DNA from: a virus
Virus record (IMG/VR): IMGVR_UViG_3300025133_000406
Span: 1 to 31,827 of that record
Length of the DNA stretch: 31,827 nt
Direction: 5' to 3' (one strand)
The notes under the pieces were generated by a model that made no database searches, was not told the origin of the DNA, and saw only the letters and a program-made list of their open reading frames with translations. Below are positions 1 to 14,643 of the stretch, in pieces (within the stretch, counting starts at the first letter, position 1; every line of letters starts with the position of its first letter). Made by a program: the position numbers and the translations under genes.

Positions 1-3000
1 GCAACAAGTTTGACATCAAGGAGGGCGGTCACAAGTGGGGCTTCCCGTTGAGTGATGCGGTTCGGTACGAGAAAGAAATCATTGCGCCGAAGTTACGAGG
101 CAGGGTGATGACCAAGCCTGAAGCGGTAAACTTCTCGGTGCAACTAAACGAGAACGTCATCCACATTCCGACAGCCTCCGAGCCTTATGTCCTGCTTCCG
201 CATGGGCCGTCCGAGATGGCCATGCATAGTTTGTTCGAGAAGAACCCAAGCCCAACGTCTAACCAGCTCGCGAAGATGCCCGGTGCGCCGAAGAAGAGGA
301 AGGGTAAGTCGAAGCTCGACGCGAACGTAAAGCCTACCAGCTACGCCGAACTCAAGGACATGGTCAACTGGGCTATCTTCCATAATGCCGAGAGGGATTG
401 GTACGACAAGTACGGTCAAGGTTTCCGCAAGATGGTTGGCGATGCCAACATGTGGGAGGCTGCTATTGTTTTCGGTATAACCTCCGCCCAGAACGCTGCC
501 GAGATTAACTTGGCTGACACGCTGCACATTATGCAGTTGGCCAGAATCCATGACCCATCAAAAGACCCGGCTGGTTTCGAGAGGGCTTTGCGAAGCGTTG
601 AAAAACCCGGTGGCCACGGCAAGCTGAAGGTTGCACAAAAGCAGATCGACGGCATCGTCAAATTCTACAAGACCGGCATCAAGGAGGGCGGACTAAAAAC
701 GACGACCTACATGCAGATGACCCGTGACCGGGGCTTTAATATCTTCAACCCGTTCAGTGTTCAGGATGTCCACATGGCTCGCGCCTATGGGTTCCGGACA
801 CAGGACTACGAGGATGTTCAGGATGAGGTCACGGCGAGGAAGGTTCGCGATCAGGTCAAGGGTCTAAAGAAAAACAAAAAGCCCCTGCAACGTGAGATTG
901 ACAAAATACAACAGAAAGCCAACGAAGCCAATGAGGGCAAAGGCCGCGAGCTGACAAAGTCCGAAGTCCGAAGGGTTAATACTTTAAACAACCAGCTCGG
1001 TGACATTGACAGCCGCATCAGTGACGGGATGGATCTGCTTGGAGCAAGCATCAAGGATGCGCCGAACATGTATCGCAAGTCGGTTGTGGACAGTGCGAAA
1101 TTTACCGGTGACTTGTCGTTGAGGTACGCCATGTACATGACCACGAAGCTGGCCAATGAATTTAACATGCGACCAGATCAGATTCAGGCGATGATTTGGT
1201 TCTACGCCAAGAGCAACCTTTCACCGAAGAAAGATTCCGGCGGCAAGAAGGCTGTTGGTGACGGCACTTACGACTCGGCGGTCAAGTATTCCCAACCGGA
1301 GATCGAGGCACTCGAAGCCATGAAGGCGGACGGGAAGTTCGACACAAGCAACCCTCTTAATCGTGCGACCAGAGCTGCCGTCCGTCCGTCCTTCACAAAG
1401 GATGTGGCGAGTGACCCTTGGTCTAACGGCAACCATTTCTTGAAGCCGCTACTTGAAACGGCACGGCAGCGAGCAGCCAACATGTTGATTGCAACTGATC
1501 CCGGCATCGAGCGGCAGTTCGCGTTCCCCCCCGGCACAACCTACGACATGAAGGTTAACTACAACCTCGATGTGCTTGAGGGAATCACTGACGGTGCAGG
1601 CAGGGTTAGGTTCTTCGATAAGATAGGTGCGCCTCACGAAATTTCACTAACCAGTGGAACCTTTTATGACCGAGAGCCATCCATGGAAATTAACTTTTCC
1701 GGCGCGGGTCTGGACTTTGTGGATCAGCTTGCCCCCTTGATGGGGGATGCGTTCCTGCAAGATGCGGTCATCACGGCCCAGCCTCAGTACAGCGGTGTTC
1801 CGTTTGGGATAGCCCTGTCCAAGGTTGATCAGTCGCCTTTTACCGAGCAGGAGATTAATGATCTGTATGCGACTATTAACCCTGAAAAGGATCAATGGGG
1901 GCTGAACTTTACCATGTCAGGATCCGGCCTAGACATGAAGTTTTTGGATGGGGTTTACTTCGGCAAGCAGGATGAGGGCAAAGATTACTCTTCCAAAGAT
2001 CTGGATAATTTTATAGAACAACTCCAGCCGGTTGCGGCATCTGCCGGTTTGGAATTCAGGACATTTAATCAGAAAGGCAATTATCATGGACATTCAGACT
2101 ATAAAGAAGGTTTGCAAAAAGCATGGAGTAAAGTTCGCACAGCCGAACGACAGGCTATACAGCGAGCCGCCATCGATGACCTTTACAAGCCGGTCTGGTC
2201 TGCGTACCAGCAGTTCCACGCCAAGCACAAGCTCCAGCCGGTACACCAAAGGCCAGCCCCGCACCTAGACGTTCAGTTCTCCGTTCAGGAGGACGCTCCC
2301 CTGTCTCCGGAAGTCGAGGCTCGCATCAACGCCATCGACGGGGCGAAGGAGATTCCGAAGGACGAGCAACCCAAGTTCGAGCCGGACACTCGCGGCAAAT
2401 GGAACGCAATACTTGGCCGTCCATCCACCGCCCTTGGTTACGTCGGAGGGCCGGAACTTCTCAAGTCCAAGAATCAATTAATCCTCGACCAAGCCTACAA
2501 GGCTAGGGCCGTCAACAAGATCACCGAGGATCTCGGAACCAAGCTCCTCAACGATGCTTACGCAAGTGTCGAGGGCTGGAAACTTCCGAAGTGGATGCGT
2601 ACCGGTAAGTGGGCCAAGCGGCTCAAGGAATTCCAAAAAGATTCTCTACCAATTGCAGCTCACCTTAACGCGACGGCGAGGGATGCTTCCGGCAACTTCA
2701 CGTTTGCCGACTTCGACATGAGGGCTGGCATGATGCCGGTTGCCCAGTTCAAGAAAGGCGAACACAAGGTCGGTGACGTAATCGAGGTTACCAACCCGCT
2801 GACCGGTGATCTGGAATTCCTTACAGTTGGCGGATTCGTAAACACTCAGGGCAGGGTCGGCTACCAGCTCACTCGTAAGATGACTGCCGACATGCAGCAG
2901 GAGTTGTATGGGCATTACAAAAAGGAATACGCCGACATGATTTGGCTGGTGGACATGTTCATCAACCCCAACCTAAAGGGCATCACCAAGGAGGTTGGTG

Positions 3001-5396
3001 GAGTCAAGGTTCCGCTCTTCAATCGGTTCGCTCTGGCCGACATGATGAAGGAAACGGATCCAAACTTTGAAGGCATTGCAGGCTACACGCCGGACGTTCT
3101 CGCAACCCGAACCTTGACGGGTATGCTGGACATGGTGATGAACCCAACCAAGGCAGGCAGATCACCGGGCCGGAAATACAAGACCGGCAAATCCAGAGAG
3201 TCAGGCAACGTCCGCGACTTGCTGACCGGTTTCAACATCAGAACTTTCCAAGCTCTGAACGAGTCAGCCAACAAGGAGTTTGCGGAGAAGGTGTTCGAGC
3301 TAGGCACCGAGCCTATGCCGAAGGACGGTGTTCCGAAAGACTACGTCAAGTTGTCTACCGGCATCGATGATCTGTTGGCAGCGGTCAAGGCTTACCGATA
3401 TTACGACAACCCGAAGGAGGGTGAAGAGGGGCATAGCGAGGCGGCTGCTAGACTGTCGGAGCTGGACAACCCAGAGAACTATTCCGCGCTACTAGCTGAA
3501 GCCTACAAGCGCAAGGGTGCCGACTTTATAATCCGCAAGGATCTGGTGAAGCTGCTCACAAATAAGTATTCTCACAGCAGCCAGCAGAACCGCCTGATGA
3601 GGGCGTTGAATTGGGGCGTAAGAAACTCGACGCAAGGTTTCCTAGTTCATCCATACTCTTATGTGGTGAACATGCTGACCAACGATTATTTTGCAGTGGA
3701 GGCGTCCTTCCACCGGGCATTCCGAGGGACTGCCTTGATGCTCAAGAAAGACACACGATCCATGGGCAAGGCGGACATAGATCAGGCTGGCCGGATCGTG
3801 GCCGGAATGGTCATCCACCGAGCTGCCGGGATCAGGCAACTGATGGGCTTCAAGACCCAGTACGACCGGGTCATCGACGAGATTCTTCCGGACGAGGTGT
3901 TCGAGAATTCAACAGCCTTGGCTGACCTGAAGGTGAACTACGATGTTGGCTGGGTTGAATACCTGAAGCAGGGCGAGATAGGTGCGGCTGGGTTGCAGGC
4001 GATCCGTTACGGCAACATCGATCTACGGCCCAAGCAGAGGCTGGCCTACGCCTACCTCAAGAGTCAGGCGGTTCGCCGTGCGAAGGACAAGGGGCTGAAA
4101 GGTAAAGCCCTCAAGGATTCGGTTGACAGTTACATGCTCAATCCACCTCAAGACGCGAGGATCGAGGCGGTCAACCAAGCTCAGTTTGAATTCCTGAACT
4201 ACGCTGACAGCCCACAACTTTTGCAGGATCTAACCAAGCATGACATGTCTCGGTTGGTGTTCCAGTATCCGCGCTTCGGCTACCACTACATGCACAAGCA
4301 GTACGACCGGCTGAAGGCACTGAAGAATCTTTTCGGTAAGCAGCCTCCCGGCCAGAGGGCGGACGCCTTGGCCCATGTGGTGACGCTGGCGACCTTTACC
4401 GGGGGCTTGGGTGGTGCTTTAGCGCATTACCTACTGAAGGCGGCAGCAGGCGACGACGAGGATGATTCAGGTCAGTACATTGGTAATTACCAGATCAAGT
4501 ACCGGGATCAGATGACCGGCGAGGTGAAGACTAAAAAGATCGACTACAGCATGATCACCAGCAACCGGATCAACTTGTCTAAATATTTCGAGGCACTTGG
4601 GATCGGTGACGGTGATGGTGAAGACTTCTGGTGGAGGGTTCGCAACTACCCGATGATTGCGATGGCCGGTGCGTCCGTTCAGGCAATCGAGGACGGTAAG
4701 AAGTTCGGGGCTGGCCATGGAGTGGCAACGTGGCTCGGCATGGCCAAGGATCTGGCAACCGACATGACCACAATCGGGGCTGGCCTGAAGGTCGGCTCGA
4801 AGGCAATTGCCTCCCTCAAGTCGATGGATTCCGGCCAACCGGAGCGACCGGCACTTGACCCTTACGGAGCCACTGTCCCGTTCAGCTTCTACCTGACCGA
4901 GGCGGCGTTGTCGTCGTTCGTTCCCGGCAAGCGACAGTTCGATGAGTTTTCACTTATGGTGGACCCAATCCACCGGAGGCGAACCGGCAGCAAACAGATC
5001 GGATACGATCCCGGCGCATGGGAAGCCATCAGGCAGGGCCATGCAGGCGGAGCCGTTGACAGGATCCTGACGGCTTTAGGAGCCGCTGACCCTCTACCTC
5101 CCGGCGGTAAGGTTGAAAACGTCTCCAGAAACGTCTCAGGGCGATCTACGGCCAAGAGCAGAGGCATCAGGCGAGAGGCCAAACAGAAGCTGGATACCAG
5201 CTCGGCTGGCCAGTACTACGATACCCATGGCAACCTCCGCTTGGGAGTGGTGCCTGATGCCAACATCCGGAAGCAGGAGCTTTGGCAGACCGGAGCCAAG
5301 TTCGGAGGGTTCAATTTGAAGTCGGTTGACCGCCGCCTTTACCTCGACCAGCTCGGTCCGCCCAAGCGGCAAAAGAGGAGAATCAAGCAGCTATGA
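1..5396 (+). CDS. Giant phage polyvalent / internal virion protein, 5' truncated
   Basis: The reading frame is open from the left edge (first full codon at base 3), so the true start lies outside the window; the TTG at 48 is only the first start-like codon. At least 1,798 residues are encoded. Numbering from the TTG, about residues 200-400 look like the 'large polyvalent protein' type of phage protein: a TYMQMTRD segment, VQDVHMARAYGF, a charged coiled-coil stretch and DQIQAMIWFYAKSNLSP. Later parts are helical and rich in Lys/Asp. A hydrophobic stretch near residues 1440-1465 (VVTLATFTGGLGGALAHYLL) could meet a membrane. Size and its place at the end of the late region suggest a virion protein delivered with the DNA, comparable in role to T7 gp16; this is inference. 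No catalytic motif was recognised. The next gene overlaps its stop by 4 bases. Confidence 0.7.
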   Translation, partial: NKFDIKEGGHKWGFPLSDAVRYEKEIIAPKLRGRVMTKPEAVNFSVQLNENVIHIPTASEPYVLLPHGPSEMAMHSLFEKNPSPTSNQLAKMPGAPKKRKGKSKLDANVKPTSYAELKDMVNWAIFHNAERDWYDKYGQGFRKMVGDANMWEAAIVFGITSAQNAAEINLADTLHIMQLARIHDPSKDPAGFERALRSVEKPGGHGKLKVAQKQIDGIVKFYKTGIKEGGLKTTTYMQMTRDRGFNIFNPFSVQDVHMARAYGFRTQDYEDVQDEVTARKVRDQVKGLKKNKKPLQREIDKIQQKANEANEGKGRELTKSEVRRVNTLNNQLGDIDSRISDGMDLLGASIKDAPNMYRKSVVDSAKFTGDLSLRYAMYMTTKLANEFNMRPDQIQAMIWFYAKSNLSPKKDSGGKKAVGDGTYDSAVKYSQPEIEALEAMKADGKFDTSNPLNRATRAAVRPSFTKDVASDPWSNGNHFLKPLLETARQRAANMLIATDPGIERQFAFPPGTTYDMKVNYNLDVLEGITDGAGRVRFFDKIGAPHEISLTSGTFYDREPSMEINFSGAGLDFVDQLAPLMGDAFLQDAVITAQPQYSGVPFGIALSKVDQSPFTEQEINDLYATINPEKDQWGLNFTMSGSGLDMKFLDGVYFGKQDEGKDYSSKDLDNFIEQLQPVAASAGLEFRTFNQKGNYHGHSDYKEGLQKAWSKVRTAERQAIQRAAIDDLYKPVWSAYQQFHAKHKLQPVHQRPAPHLDVQFSVQEDAPLSPEVEARINAIDGAKEIPKDEQPKFEPDTRGKWNAILGRPSTALGYVGGPELLKSKNQLILDQAYKARAVNKITEDLGTKLLNDAYASVEGWKLPKWMRTGKWAKRLKEFQKDSLPIAAHLNATARDASGNFTFADFDMRAGMMPVAQFKKGEHKVGDVIEVTNPLTGDLEFLTVGGFVNTQGRVGYQLTRKMTADMQQELYGHYKKEYADMIWLVDMFINPNLKGITKEVGGVKVPLFNRFALADMMKETDPNFEGIAGYTPDVLATRTLTGMLDMVMNPTKAGRSPGRKYKTGKSRESGNVRDLLTGFNIRTFQALNESANKEFAEKVFELGTEPMPKDGVPKDYVKLSTGIDDLLAAVKAYRYYDNPKEGEEGHSEAAARLSELDNPENYSALLAEAYKRKGADFIIRKDLVKLLTNKYSHSSQQNRLMRALNWGVRNSTQGFLVHPYSYVVNMLTNDYFAVEASFHRAFRGTALMLKKDTRSMGKADIDQAGRIVAGMVIHRAAGIRQLMGFKTQYDRVIDEILPDEVFENSTALADLKVNYDVGWVEYLKQGEIGAAGLQAIRYGNIDLRPKQRLAYAYLKSQAVRRAKDKGLKGKALKDSVDSYMLNPPQDARIEAVNQAQFEFLNYADSPQLLQDLTKHDMSRLVFQYPRFGYHYMHKQYDRLKALKNLFGKQPPGQRADALAHVVTLATFTGGLGGALAHYLLKAAAGDDEDDSGQYIGNYQIKYRDQMTGEVKTKKIDYSMITSNRINLSKYFEALGIGDGDGEDFWWRVRNYPMIAMAGASVQAIEDGKKFGAGHGVATWLGMAKDLATDMTTIGAGLKVGSKAIASLKSMDSGQPERPALDPYGATVPFSFYLTEAALSSFVPGKRQFDEFSLMVDPIHRRRTGSKQIGYDPGAWEAIRQGHAGGAVDRILTALGAADPLPPGGKVENVSRNVSGRSTAKSRGIRREAKQKLDTSSAGQYYDTHGNLRLGVVPDANIRKQELWQTGAKFGGFNLKSVDRRLYLDQLGPPKRQKRRIKQL

Positions 5397-5868: not shown

Positions 5869-5945
5869 TGGTACACCGGGTAGGACTTGAACCTACAACC
5901 TACGGATTAGAAGTCCGTCGCTCTATCCAGTTGAGCTACCGGTGC
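5869..5945 (-). tRNA. tRNA-Arg (anticodon TCT), with encoded CCA
   Basis: The 77-nt minus-strand sequence folds as a full cloverleaf. The acceptor stem GCACCGG pairs with CCGGTGT (one G-U at the first pair), D-loop is AGCTCAACTGGATAGAGC, the anticodon loop is CTTCTAA with TCT at its centre, the T arm contains GGTTCAAGTCC, and the CCA is encoded. It reads AGA and AGG. It is the last element of the integrase operon and ends just before a terminator. Its first 23 nt overlap the end of the upstream coding sequence, so it must be cut from a longer transcript. tRNA genes are classic integration targets, so this may be the attP core, the phage supplying a whole tRNA gene; that role is inferred. Confidence 0.9.
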
Positions 5946-7903: not shown

Positions 7904-9373
7904 TCAGGCTCCGATGTTGGTGGTGAAGACGCAGTCCGTAAGGAGGTGAGCGTAGTGCTGCTCGGTGACCTGAACCGACTGATGCCCCAGCGCGATCTGG
8001 GCCTTGTGGAGTGACCCAGTAGCCGTCACAACCTCGCAACCGTACAACGCCCGAAGCTCATGCAGCTTCTTGGTGAAGTAGTTGGCGGCTTCAGTGCCTT
8101 CAAGAAGAACCTCCCTCCACCATGCGTTGTTGGCTTGCTTGAACGACGCTGGCGTCCAGCGTTGTTGGCCGCGAAGGATGCGTTCGTTGCGTGGCGCATT
8201 GCGGCGTTTCTGCTCGGCCCTGACCCAATCCAACAGGAAGCGCGGGACGGTAACCTCGCGAACTTGCTTGCCCTTCGGACGCCAAGCCGGTTGCTTGAAC
8301 TTTCCGTTTTTGTACGGGTCACAAGTGCGAACCGCGACGACGACAACGTCCACCGTTTTCGGCTTTTGCGATTCCGGATCCACGATTGTCTTCCGCGCCT
8401 CAAAGACGCTGTCGAAGTCGAGGTGCAACAGCTCGCCAAAGCGCAACCCAGAGTTGCGAGCGAACAGGTACAGCGTGATGCAGTTCCACAACAGCTCATT
8501 GGCGTCGTCGTCCTTGCTGAAGTCAGCGGCGTCACGCAGGGCGATCAGCTTGGCGTCCAAATCGTGGATGGCCTTCAGCGGCGGAGGGCTGTAAGCCTTC
8601 ACCTTCGCAACACCTAGCCCAGCCGACTCGCGGAACACCTTGACGGCGTCAGCCGGTATGTTGAGCCGTCCGTAAGCCGCTTTTATGTAGCGGTCGGAGA
8701 AGAGTGCCTTGGCCTTCTTCACGGTGCTGTTGTAGGTGCCTACGCGCTTCTCGTAGGTAGGGCCACAAGTCAGCTCACCACCCTCGCCATCCGACAAGAC
8801 CCGGCGACGGTAGTCGTCCAGAATCTTGCACTCGCCGTCGTCGGTCAACTCACCGAAAGATTCCAAGTTGACATGGCTAACGTCGGCTTGGCCTTTACCT
8901 CCGCGACCGGCACCAGCACCGAGAATCTGGCGAAGTGCCGCCGGGTAGTTTGTAATTGAACTAGCCGCCAACTGCTCCTTGAACTTGGTCTTGATCTTGC
9001 CGTCCTTTGCCGCCGTCTCGAATGCGTCGATCACGCACTGGGCGGAAGCCCATACCTTGCGTTCGCTGTTCAGCGCAATGTCACAAGTTTCTTCAGTCCA
9101 CTTCTGATGGGTGTACTTTGCAAAGTACGCCGCCGCAATCTCACAAGCCTTCTTTAAATTAGGCGTGTTGGTGGTTTTAGGTATGCGGTTCTTTTTCACA
9201 TGCCGTCCCTTTATGTACAACTGGCCCTGCCAGTTCGGGGAACCGGGTCGTTTGAACAGCTTGAATTCCTGAATTACGTTATTTAGGCGAGCTGTTACTT
9301 TCCTGCTTGAACCGCGATCCAGCACCGTGAATGTAGGTTTGTCATCCTTTGTTAATTTAGTATTTATGGTCAT
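7904..9373 (-). CDS. int: Tyrosine recombinase (phage integrase)
   Basis: A C-terminal tyrosine recombinase domain carries all expected active-site residues. Numbering from the GTG at 9412 (502 aa): Arg324 in ARNSGLRFGELLHLDFD, a Lys near 381, His451 and Arg454 in KLHELRALYG, His477 in ALGHQS, and nucleophile Tyr487 in EQHYAHL. The N-terminal about 150 residues would hold arm-binding and core-binding parts. I take ATG 9373 (489 aa) because a TATACT -10 lies at 9398-9403, inside the longer version; GTG 9412 stays possible. Neither start has a clear Shine-Dalgarno, but ACGCAAAA lies 9 nt before 9373. It would integrate and help excise the phage, probably at a tRNA-Arg gene. The protein is longer than many integrases. 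Confidence 0.95.
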   Translation of the reverse strand: MTINTKLTKDDKPTFTVLDRGSSRKVTARLNNVIQEFKLFKRPGSPNWQGQLYIKGRHVKKNRIPKTTNTPNLKKACEIAAAYFAKYTHQKWTEETCDIALNSERKVWASAQCVIDAFETAAKDGKIKTKFKEQLAASSITNYPAALRQILGAGAGRGGKGQADVSHVNLESFGELTDDGECKILDDYRRRVLSDGEGGELTCGPTYEKRVGTYNSTVKKAKALFSDRYIKAAYGRLNIPADAVKVFRESAGLGVAKVKAYSPPPLKAIHDLDAKLIALRDAADFSKDDDANELLWNCITLYLFARNSGLRFGELLHLDFDSVFEARKTIVDPESQKPKTVDVVVVAVRTCDPYKNGKFKQPAWRPKGKQVREVTVPRFLLDWVRAEQKRRNAPRNERILRGQQRWTPASFKQANNAWWREVLLEGTEAANYFTKKLHELRALYGCEVVTATGSLHKAQIALGHQSVQVTEQHYAHLLTDCVFTTNIGA

Positions 9374-9397
9374 TTTATCGTTTTTTGCGTTGTTTTT

Positions 9398-9435
9398 AGT
9401 ATAATTAGTCACTGGCTATCTGGTAGCTAGTCACT
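9398..9435 (-). promoter_or_regulatory. Integrase promoter with two operator-like sites
   Basis: Read leftward, a TATACT -10 (9398-9403) is followed by a short leader to ATG 9373. The 8-mer AGTGACTA occurs immediately upstream (9406-9413) and again 22 bp further (9428-9435), about two helical turns apart, covering the -10 border and the -35 position. No good -35 was seen. A regulator binding both sites would cover the promoter. The same core recurs at 9526-9532 and in the palindrome at 10718-10729. Confidence 0.5.
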
Positions 9436-10745: not shown

Positions 10746-10952
10746 ATGAAAAAACAAACAAAAGCACTGGCGGTTCCTGCCAAAGTACACAAGAAGCTGA
10801 AGGCGTTCTGCAACTCGCGAGGCGCGAAGCTCGGTGACACTGCCGGGGGTCTGATTCTGTACGGCCTAGCGGCCAAGGATCATCAAATGGAAACGGACAC
10901 CTATTTCCTCCGTAAAGAAGGAAAAATTCCACCCACTCACCTCTGCAAATGA
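10746..10952 (+). CDS. Ribbon-helix-helix-like small regulator (68 aa)
   Basis: The segment KALAVPAKVHKKLKAFCNSRGAKLGDTAGGLILYGL has the order strand (KALAVPA), helix (KVHKKLKAFCNSRG), turn (KLGD) and helix (TAGGLILYGLA) that typifies Arc/CopG-type DNA-binding proteins. The C-terminal third is charged. It starts 16 nt after the 12-bp palindrome, so autoregulation is plausible. Its stop overlaps the next start by 4 nt (ATGA). No close relative is named here; the assignment rests on fold-level pattern. Confidence 0.6.
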   Translation: MKKQTKALAVPAKVHKKLKAFCNSRGAKLGDTAGGLILYGLAAKDHQMETDTYFLRKEGKIPPTHLCK

Positions 10953-11329
10953 AAGTTGAAGCAACTCAAATACAGAACATGCTGCACTCGTTTTCGCAAC
11001 TGGTGATGAGAGAAACACAGCCCCCCATTTCCGCCATCACCGAAGTCAGCCAAGCGCGGTACTCGGTGAGTTGGGAAGAGTTGATTGGCAAACGGCGTGA
11101 CAACCCTCGCGTTGTGATGCTGCGAAGGATGGTCAGCAAGGTGTTCCGCGAGCTGGGATTCTCCTTCCCGAAAATCGGTGAGGTGATGAACCGGGACCAT
11201 GGGTCGGTGCAGCACAACGTCAACGCCATGAATGGAATGCTGGATATTTATCCGGATGTTCAGGACGAGTACAAGCAATTCAAGTGCGATGTTTCCGAAA
11301 AAATATCTAACACGAAAAGAGGTGAGTGA
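10949..11329 (+). CDS. Stand-alone DnaA domain IV-like DNA-binding protein
   Basis: Residues about 28-95 align by eye with the C-terminal DNA-binding domain of bacterial DnaA. EELIGKRRDNPRVVMLRRM corresponds to DLLSKRRSRSVARPRQMAM of E. coli DnaA. FRELGFSFPKIGEVMNRDH corresponds to [21 protein letters not shown], and the signature helix RDHTTVLHA appears as RDHGSVQHN. The protein is only 126 aa and has no AAA+ ATPase module, so it cannot open an origin alone. It may bind DnaA-box-like sequences, recruit or exclude host DnaA, or act as a regulator. The ATG overlaps the previous stop. It precedes the HTH protein and nucleases of the replication block. Confidence 0.85.
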   Translation: MKVEATQIQNMLHSFSQLVMRETQPPISAITEVSQARYSVSWEELIGKRRDNPRVVMLRRMVSKVFRELGFSFPKIGEVMNRDHGSVQHNVNAMNGMLDIYPDVQDEYKQFKCDVSEKISNTKRGE

Positions 11330-13604: not shown

Positions 13605-13813
13605 ACAACAAGGAGATCAGGATGAAAAAGATGTTGGCTGATCCTAATTGGGTATCAGCTAACAAGGCGCGGATTGAGATGAACAAGGCGAGTGATAATT
13701 TAAACAATTACATTGCAGACCTAAAGGATCCGGAACTGAAGCGGTTAAGGAACGAATTCAGCGATGCCAAGTTTCGGTTCCAAGCCGAGCTGGCGTACAT
13801 TGCAGCAGTGTGA
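13601..13813 (+). CDS. Small helical hypothetical protein (70 aa)
   Basis: Coupled to its neighbours by 4-nt overlaps on both sides (ATGA, GTGA). The product is helical and charged (NKARIEMNKASDNLNNYIADL; DAKFRFQAELAYIAA) with no recognisable motif. It precedes the replication protein, so it may be a small accessory factor. Confidence 0.55.
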   Translation: MNNKEIRMKKMLADPNWVSANKARIEMNKASDNLNNYIADLKDPELKRLRNEFSDAKFRFQAELAYIAAV

Positions 13814-14643
13814 ACTACATTAAGCTGGTCAATAGCTTCTGGCATGTGGACTTGGAATACTCTTTTCCCTGCAACGCAACCCGTCTCTATTTTGGCCTGC
13901 TTAATATGGCTAACCGGCTGGGCTGGAAGAACCCTTTCGGTGCAACCAACCAGCAACTCGCAGCCCTCGTTCAGTGCGATGAGAAGACATTAATTAAGTG
14001 TCGCAAAGTGTTGGTAAAAAGTGGTCTTATTTCGGTAAAACGAGGGTGCAAGAATACCCCTAATTCTATTACCTTAAATGCCATACACTGGAATATTTCC
14101 AGTGAATCCTCCAGTGAATCCTCCAGTGTATCCTCCTGCGAATCCTCCAGCCATCTTAAAACTAAAACTAAAACTAAAAGAATATATATTGCTCAGATCG
14201 AAGAGGTGTTCGGTTTATACCCTCGCCGGGTAGGTAAAAAAGCCGCCATCAAACGTATCCGCGAAGCCATGCATGACCATGGTTACGAATTCATTCTGGA
14301 GAAGACCAAAGCCTACGCCAAAGCCAGAGAAGGTCTGCCTCTCGAATACACGCCTCATCCCGCAACGTGGTACTATCAGGGCCGCTACCTCGATGAGCCT
14401 GACACTTGGGCAGTGACCGGTTCGCAATCTGGATCCTCACCCAGCACTACCATGTCCGATTGGGAAGCCCAGAAGCAACTCACACTTGTCGAGGCAGAGA
14501 TGAAGCAAATCAAGGAGACTCACGCCTACCCCTGTCCCGGCGGTGGATATACTTGGACAGGGGTTGACAAGAAACACCTAGCCGCCTTCAGGAAGCTCAA
14601 GGATAGGCGCAAGGAGCTAAAGCCAATTGCCATGGGACTATGA
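13810..14643 (+). CDS. Lambda O-like replication initiator
   Basis: 277 aa from a GTG overlapping the previous stop. The N-terminal about 95 residues look like a winged helix (FGATNQQLAALVQCDEKTLIKCRKVLVKSGLISVKRG), then a Ser/Glu linker of about 18 residues and TKTKTK. The C-terminal half holds FGLYPRRVGKKAAIKRIREAM and EYTPHPATWYYQGRYLDEPDTW, a pattern common in phage replication proteins that load the host helicase. The linker is coded by four 12-bp iterons followed by an A+T-rich tract, just as ori lies inside the O gene of lambda. The protein would therefore bind its own gene and recruit the replisome. No helicase loader gene was identified beside it. Confidence 0.75.
   Translation: MNYIKLVNSFWHVDLEYSFPCNATRLYFGLLNMANRLGWKNPFGATNQQLAALVQCDEKTLIKCRKVLVKSGLISVKRGCKNTPNSITLNAIHWNISSESSSESSSVSSCESSSHLKTKTKTKRIYIAQIEEVFGLYPRRVGKKAAIKRIREAMHDHGYEFILEKTKAYAKAREGLPLEYTPHPATWYYQGRYLDEPDTWAVTGSQSGSSPSTTMSDWEAQKQLTLVEAEMKQIKETHAYPCPGGGYTWTGVDKKHLAAFRKLKDRRKELKPIAMGL
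14085..14184. other. Candidate replication origin (iterons plus A+T-rich tract)
   Basis: Four direct 12-bp units begin at 14098, 14110, 14122 and 14134 (TCCAGTGAATCC twice, TCCAGTGTATCC, TCCTGCGAATCC), then a partial TCCAG at 14146. An inverted half (ACACTGGA, 14085-14092) lies upstream. An A+T-rich tract follows at about 14155-14190 (ACTAAA repeated three times, then AATATATATT). Iterons plus an AT-rich unwinding zone inside an O-like gene are the established design of lambdoid origins; activity here is inferred. Confidence 0.7.

Follow-up and report, generated by a model that had tools for sequence, protein, structure and literature searches.

Results

The initiator gene and its product

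The window, IMGVR_UViG_3300025133_000406, is a virus contig of 31,827 bp and contains genes for an integrase-like protein, a terminase and a major head protein. The gene studied here occupies positions 13810-14643 on the + strand, has a GTG start and encodes a protein of 277 residues. It is set in a replication and recombination block with an Hjc-like nuclease and an exonuclease, and its product has full-length relatives of 60-96% identity. The protein matches phrog_270, "replication initiation protein", with an E value of 4.8e-21, other related initiator families match too, and the N-terminus matches phrog_23776 (E 1.2e-15). In the AlphaFold2 model, residues 1-90 (13810-14080, + strand) form a winged-helix DNA-binding domain (pLDDT 84-94), whose nearest folds in the PDB are the N-terminal domains of RepA_N initiators. 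Residues 94-123 are predicted to be disordered (pLDDT < 50), and residues 120-199 (14167-14406, + strand) form a helical C-terminal domain that resembles actinophage replication initiators. By family and predicted fold, the protein is best regarded as a replication initiator whose N-terminal domain is of a DNA-binding type.

We infer that the C-terminal domain contacts the host helicase machinery; in two actinophages with a similar C-terminal domain, a gene for a DnaB-like helicase is the immediate neighbour of the initiator gene or is separated from it by a single gene. The two genes following the initiator gene (14640 and 14857) were scanned for a helicase loader (gene P), and neither gave a match.

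The window contains three further features of interest. A 126-residue protein (10949-11329, + strand) corresponds to the C-terminal, box-binding domain of DnaA and to no other part of DnaA (Bac_DnaA_C, E 4.6e-8); in Tenacibaculum phage Gundel_1 (L176, 1406-1831), a gene annotated as DnaA-like directly precedes the phage's own initiator. A tRNA-Arg (tct) gene (5869-5945, - strand) is located about 2 kb from the integrase-like gene (7904-9412, same strand), a proximity that possibly reflects an attachment site. Finally, an open reading frame of 1782 codons (48-5396, + strand) matches no PHROG at E 0.001 and probably encodes a virion protein.

Iterons, palindrome and A+T-rich tract

The codons of the predicted disordered linker contain a tandem array (14098-14151) of period 12 and 4.4 copies, which scores highest of all tandem repeats in the record (score 85, Tandem Repeats Finder). 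Iterons 1 and 2 (14098-14109 and 14110-14121, + strand) both read TCCAGTGAATCC, iteron 3 (14122-14133, +) reads TCCAGTGTATCC and iteron 4 (14134-14145, +) reads TCCTGCGAATCC, with two mismatches; a half iteron, TCCAGC (14146-14151, +), closes the array. The array is stronger than expected by chance, whether bases or synonymous codons are shuffled (z = 4.2). Outside it, the 12-bp unit has only scattered matches of 10-11 out of 12 letters in the whole record.

At the 5' boundary of the array, an inverted iteron copy (14083-14093), a 3-nt gap and the start of the first direct iteron (14097-14107) make up a palindrome (14083-14107; p 0.01 against shuffles). Its core is perfect, with CACTGGAA at 14086-14093 and TTCCAGTG at 14097-14104 separated by TAT, and the second arm overlaps the first unit. 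The 3' end of the array adjoins a tract of 80-82% A+T (approximately 14150-14190, + strand) with A on the coding strand, which we propose to be the unwinding element; its segment 14150-14189 ranks in the top 0.14% of the record's 40-mers by A+T, and TAAAAC is repeated 3.8 times within it (14157-14179). The initial annotation had described four direct 12-bp units starting at 14098, 14110, 14122 and 14134, an inverted half upstream and an A+T-rich tract right after, all in the codons of a flexible linker; these elements are real, the unit positions are exact, and the half iteron comes in addition. No DnaA box with one mismatch or fewer lies within 1.7 kb of the array, and the GC skew has no sharp switch that would place an origin there.

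Conservation in related phages

The array lies at the same codons in all six complete close relatives (60-96% protein identity), despite differences in the encoded amino acids. The letters of the units change in concert. In L005 and L008 the units read CCAGTGAAAACG or CCAGTATAAACG, so that the linker is NASENVP.. or NASINAS.. in place of Ser/Glu. L003 and L004 contain TCCACACAAAGC units, and the upstream inverted half is now GTGTGGAA, the reverse complement of TTCCACAC; the other close relatives retain the boundary palindrome. Taken together with the wider family described below, these comparisons strongly support the earlier proposal that the gene encodes an initiator binding its own coding DNA.

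A wider family was collected from viral contigs and species genomes with the N-terminal winged-helix domain as query, and reduced to a non-redundant set of 109 genes, the domain sequences of which differ by over 10%. Named hosts are chiefly Bacteroidota, with Clostridia, Bacilli and others also represented. In the segment following the domain, the mean self-similarity of the 109 genes is 0.435, 0.394 and 0.352 at 12, 24 and 36 nt, compared with a background near 0.28. No other period stands out, and the three peaks are absent from the flanking parts of the genes. By comparison with shuffled sequences, a significant 12-nt array is present in 89 of the 109 genes; the same test was positive for the domain itself in 0 of 109 and for the upstream region in 2 of 99. 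Of these 89 arrays, 78 also exceed shuffles in which synonymous codons are exchanged and the protein sequence is left unchanged. In a stricter test of lags 9-18 (n = 111), the period was 12 in 82 cases and 11 in three, and the result holds after clustering at 50% identity (19 of 28 groups with period 12, two with period 11). In 90 out of 111 loci of about 6 kb, no other 12-nt repeat is stronger than the array; arrays have a median length of 5.4 units and start near codon 97.

The initial annotation had named conserved iteron number and phase in relatives as a check. Iterons are present throughout the close relatives and in most of the wider family, while about a fifth (20 of 109) have the N-terminal domain and no significant 12-bp array; some of these have 11-bp repeats. 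By inspection, L009, L101, L102, L137 and L144 have dispersed or both-strand repeats, and L088, L139, L141 and L159 have no visible repeats after the domain. Two inverted-copy pairs, CCGTGGTA / TACCACGG, stand in for the direct array in L101 (3001 onward, gene nt ~280-350) and encode TVVKNTTV and AVVNNTTE.

The flanking elements recur as well. Of 85 families, 46 have a significant palindrome at the 5' edge, in which an inverted copy is paired with the leading direct unit, and 39 do not; significance is reached at the 3' edge in five families and in the control in two. With strict clustering the corresponding values are 9/21, 1/21 and 1/21. The gap of the 5' palindrome is most often 1 or 3 nt. 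Across the family, A+T content is highest (0.70) in the 30 nt that follow the array on its 3' side, and 68 of 82 loci have a 40-mer from the gene's top 5% by A+T within 100 nt past the array.

DNA-level constraint on the linker

In L049, L160 and the Gundel_1 locus, the arrays have a period of 11 bp, with copies in all three reading frames and no repeat in the protein, and the repeat unit must therefore be one of DNA and not of protein. Among clades the encoded repeats are wholly different, for example SDTL, NDSI, GGIS, VANS, EVSK and LPPN. That the Ser/Glu and TK repeats are a by-product of the origin DNA, as had been suggested from the window alone, is strongly supported by relatives that vary the amino acids and keep the array, by the synonymous-codon shuffles and by the 11-bp arrays. 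There is strong support at the sequence level for regarding residues 94-123 as what the putative origin DNA happens to encode, a clear case of a protein sequence dictated by a DNA function.

We also compared iteron similarity with the similarity of each protein domain. For the N-terminal domain, the Mantel correlation is 0.28 (p 0.001), or 0.27 without the window's clade; for the C-terminal domain it is 0.10, or 0.04 without this clade. Given that domain and array adjoin in one gene, linkage itself inflates the N-terminal correlation, and the weighty comparison is with the equally close C-terminal side. L071/L166 and L029/L085, for example, are pairs that have a common C-terminus (normalised alignment score 0.96) and unrelated iterons. 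Across the sequences compared, the iterons are inherited together with the DNA-binding domain and not with the C-terminal domain.

Comparison with known initiators

Searched against solved structures, the profile of the N-terminal domain finds the RepA_N initiator domain with an E value of 0.0065; the single protein sequence gives weak RepA matches. The top matches of the fold comparison, 4pql, 4pt7 and 5kbj, include one DNA complex and are of modest significance (E 0.004-0.02, TM about 0.5 over the target). Pfam RepA_N (PF06970) is matched neither by the window protein nor by the family members scanned, in which HTH_36 is the commonest Pfam match (15 of 38 members). The winged helix at the N-terminus of pSK41 Rep binds to boxes located centrally in rep. 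The origin encodes the middle part of this protein, a dispensable linker, and the C-terminal domain is separable; in the chimeric Rep of pPR9, domain and origin have been replaced jointly by a phage-type HTH_36 module (PMC5703833). The window family resembles these staphylococcal RepA_N systems in its presumed mid-gene sites, in its nearest solved fold and in its frequent match to HTH_36, the type of module found in pPR9; the iterons of the window lie mid-gene, in codons of a linker predicted to be disordered. It differs in belonging to phages, not plasmids, and in carrying, where those plasmids have four Rep boxes, several consecutive 12-bp units preceded on the 5' side by a palindrome.

In phage lambda, too, the initiator gene, O, has iterons and an A+T-rich region at its centre, and part of the protein sequence is determined by the iterons (PMC7466680). 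The four 18-bp iterons annotated within gene O (NC_001416) start 20-24 bp apart, whereas those of the window are 12 bp long and contiguous. No match to the Pfam family of lambda O was found in the window protein or in the family members, and the match to the O-like phrog_678 is weak (E 1.5e-4), far below that to phrog_270. The description of this putative origin as lambda-like is apt for how the mechanism would work, and does not extend to membership: with 12-bp contiguous iterons and a fold nearest to RepA_N, the system is not lambdoid.

The lactococcal replisome organisers Rep2009 of Tuc2009 and ORF13 of TP901-1 bind repeat-rich regions in their own genes, which are the phage origins (PMC8965321); the Tuc2009 record is annotated "contains origin of replication". 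Their N-terminal domains differ from that of the window protein, and the repeat periods are multiples of 5 in Tuc2009 and 15 in TP901-1. The RepA/RepO-like initiators of the actinophages phiPsal1, Aleemily, Yvonnetastic and Rousseau have a homologous C-terminal domain and, as in the window, repeats in the middle of the gene, but other N-terminal domains and repeats of period 15, 15, 5 and on both strands, respectively. Among the loci collected, L178, L179, L180 and L181 are actinophage initiators that have the C-terminal domain alone in common, with mid-gene repeats of period 5, 15, 15 or on both strands. From these comparisons, repeat period seems to go with the family of the N-terminal domain.

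Discussion

By its repeats, its A+T-rich region and the identity of its initiator, the locus appears to be of the general kind in which an intragenic iteron origin is paired with a cognate initiator. The sequences analysed make it very likely that 14083-14190 is the phage's replication origin, located inside the initiator gene and bound by the gene's own product. The intragenic phage origins of lambda and the lactococcal phages, together with the RepA_N fold and the pSK41 and pPR9 parallels, make the step from sequence to origin a well-founded one.

Could the repeats be a property of the protein, or of no consequence at all? A Ser-rich disordered linker might have grown by tandem duplication of codons, without any function of the DNA; the array does encode such a linker, and most arrays are in frame, 12 nt being four codons. 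Neutral in-frame growth, however, predicts periods of 6, 9, 15 and 18 nt besides 12, and only 12, 24 and 36 stand out. The 11-bp arrays run through all frames, codon choice repeats beyond what the amino acids require, and neither slippage nor a protein repeat leads one to expect a palindrome and an A+T peak, each on a fixed side. We regard this explanation as improbable. A slightly smaller likelihood attaches to the idea that the array is a site of the same protein for gene control, either as an operator or as an intragenic roadblock to transcription. Winged-helix domains of this type are also found in transcription regulators, and a protein bound inside the gene could block its transcription. 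The A+T-rich tract 3' of the array, the initiator annotation, the C-terminal domain and the RepA_N, lambda and lactococcal precedents favour an origin instead, although control of the gene could coexist with an origin function. The role of a promoter operator was rejected: upstream of the family's genes, iterons occur in 4 of 78 loci, no more often than after shuffling (6 of 78).

Short tandem repeats mark centromere-like and packaging sites as well, and a centromere-binding protein of pNOB8 is a weak fold match. A partition or packaging site that lies in this gene by chance is nonetheless the least probable of these explanations: site and winged-helix domain are co-inherited, the gene is within the replication and recombination block, and no partition protein was noticed among the open reading frames scanned in the record.

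For the replication origin that we favour, we envisage the following mechanism. The N-terminal winged-helix domain would bind head-to-head at the boundary palindrome (14083-14107), and additional molecules would then occupy the adjacent 12-bp iterons, spaced by about one turn of the helix. The strain of this assembly would open the A+T-rich tract that follows directly on the 3' side (14151-14190), and the host helicase or primosome would be recruited by the C-terminal domain. Binding, cooperative assembly, unwinding and helicase recruitment are all inferred steps.

The layout of the locus recurs, with different letters, in roughly a hundred related genes of phages and prophages. It is probable, on balance, that a large family of mostly Bacteroidota phages shares one origin grammar, in which a palindrome, a row of 12-bp (rarely 11-bp) iterons and an A-rich tract all lie within the initiator's coding sequence, flanked by the parts for a winged-helix reader and for a C-terminal domain that can be exchanged. 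The reader together with its iterons would then form one swappable cassette with divergent letters and fixed spacing, and the family a library of dozens of reader-site pairs that probably define phage compatibility groups. That an initiator can bind an origin inside its own gene is a principle already known; the family-wide 12-bp grammar with its boundary palindrome appears to be undescribed in the literature searched, in which we found no published origin for the window's initiator family. Replication origins may be read directly from sequence in many phages and prophages, mostly of Bacteroidota, for none of which a described origin was found in that literature. The family also offers many matched examples of a small DNA-binding domain encoded beside the site that it presumably reads, within one gene; they would allow direct tests of the domain's reading code and of phage compatibility.
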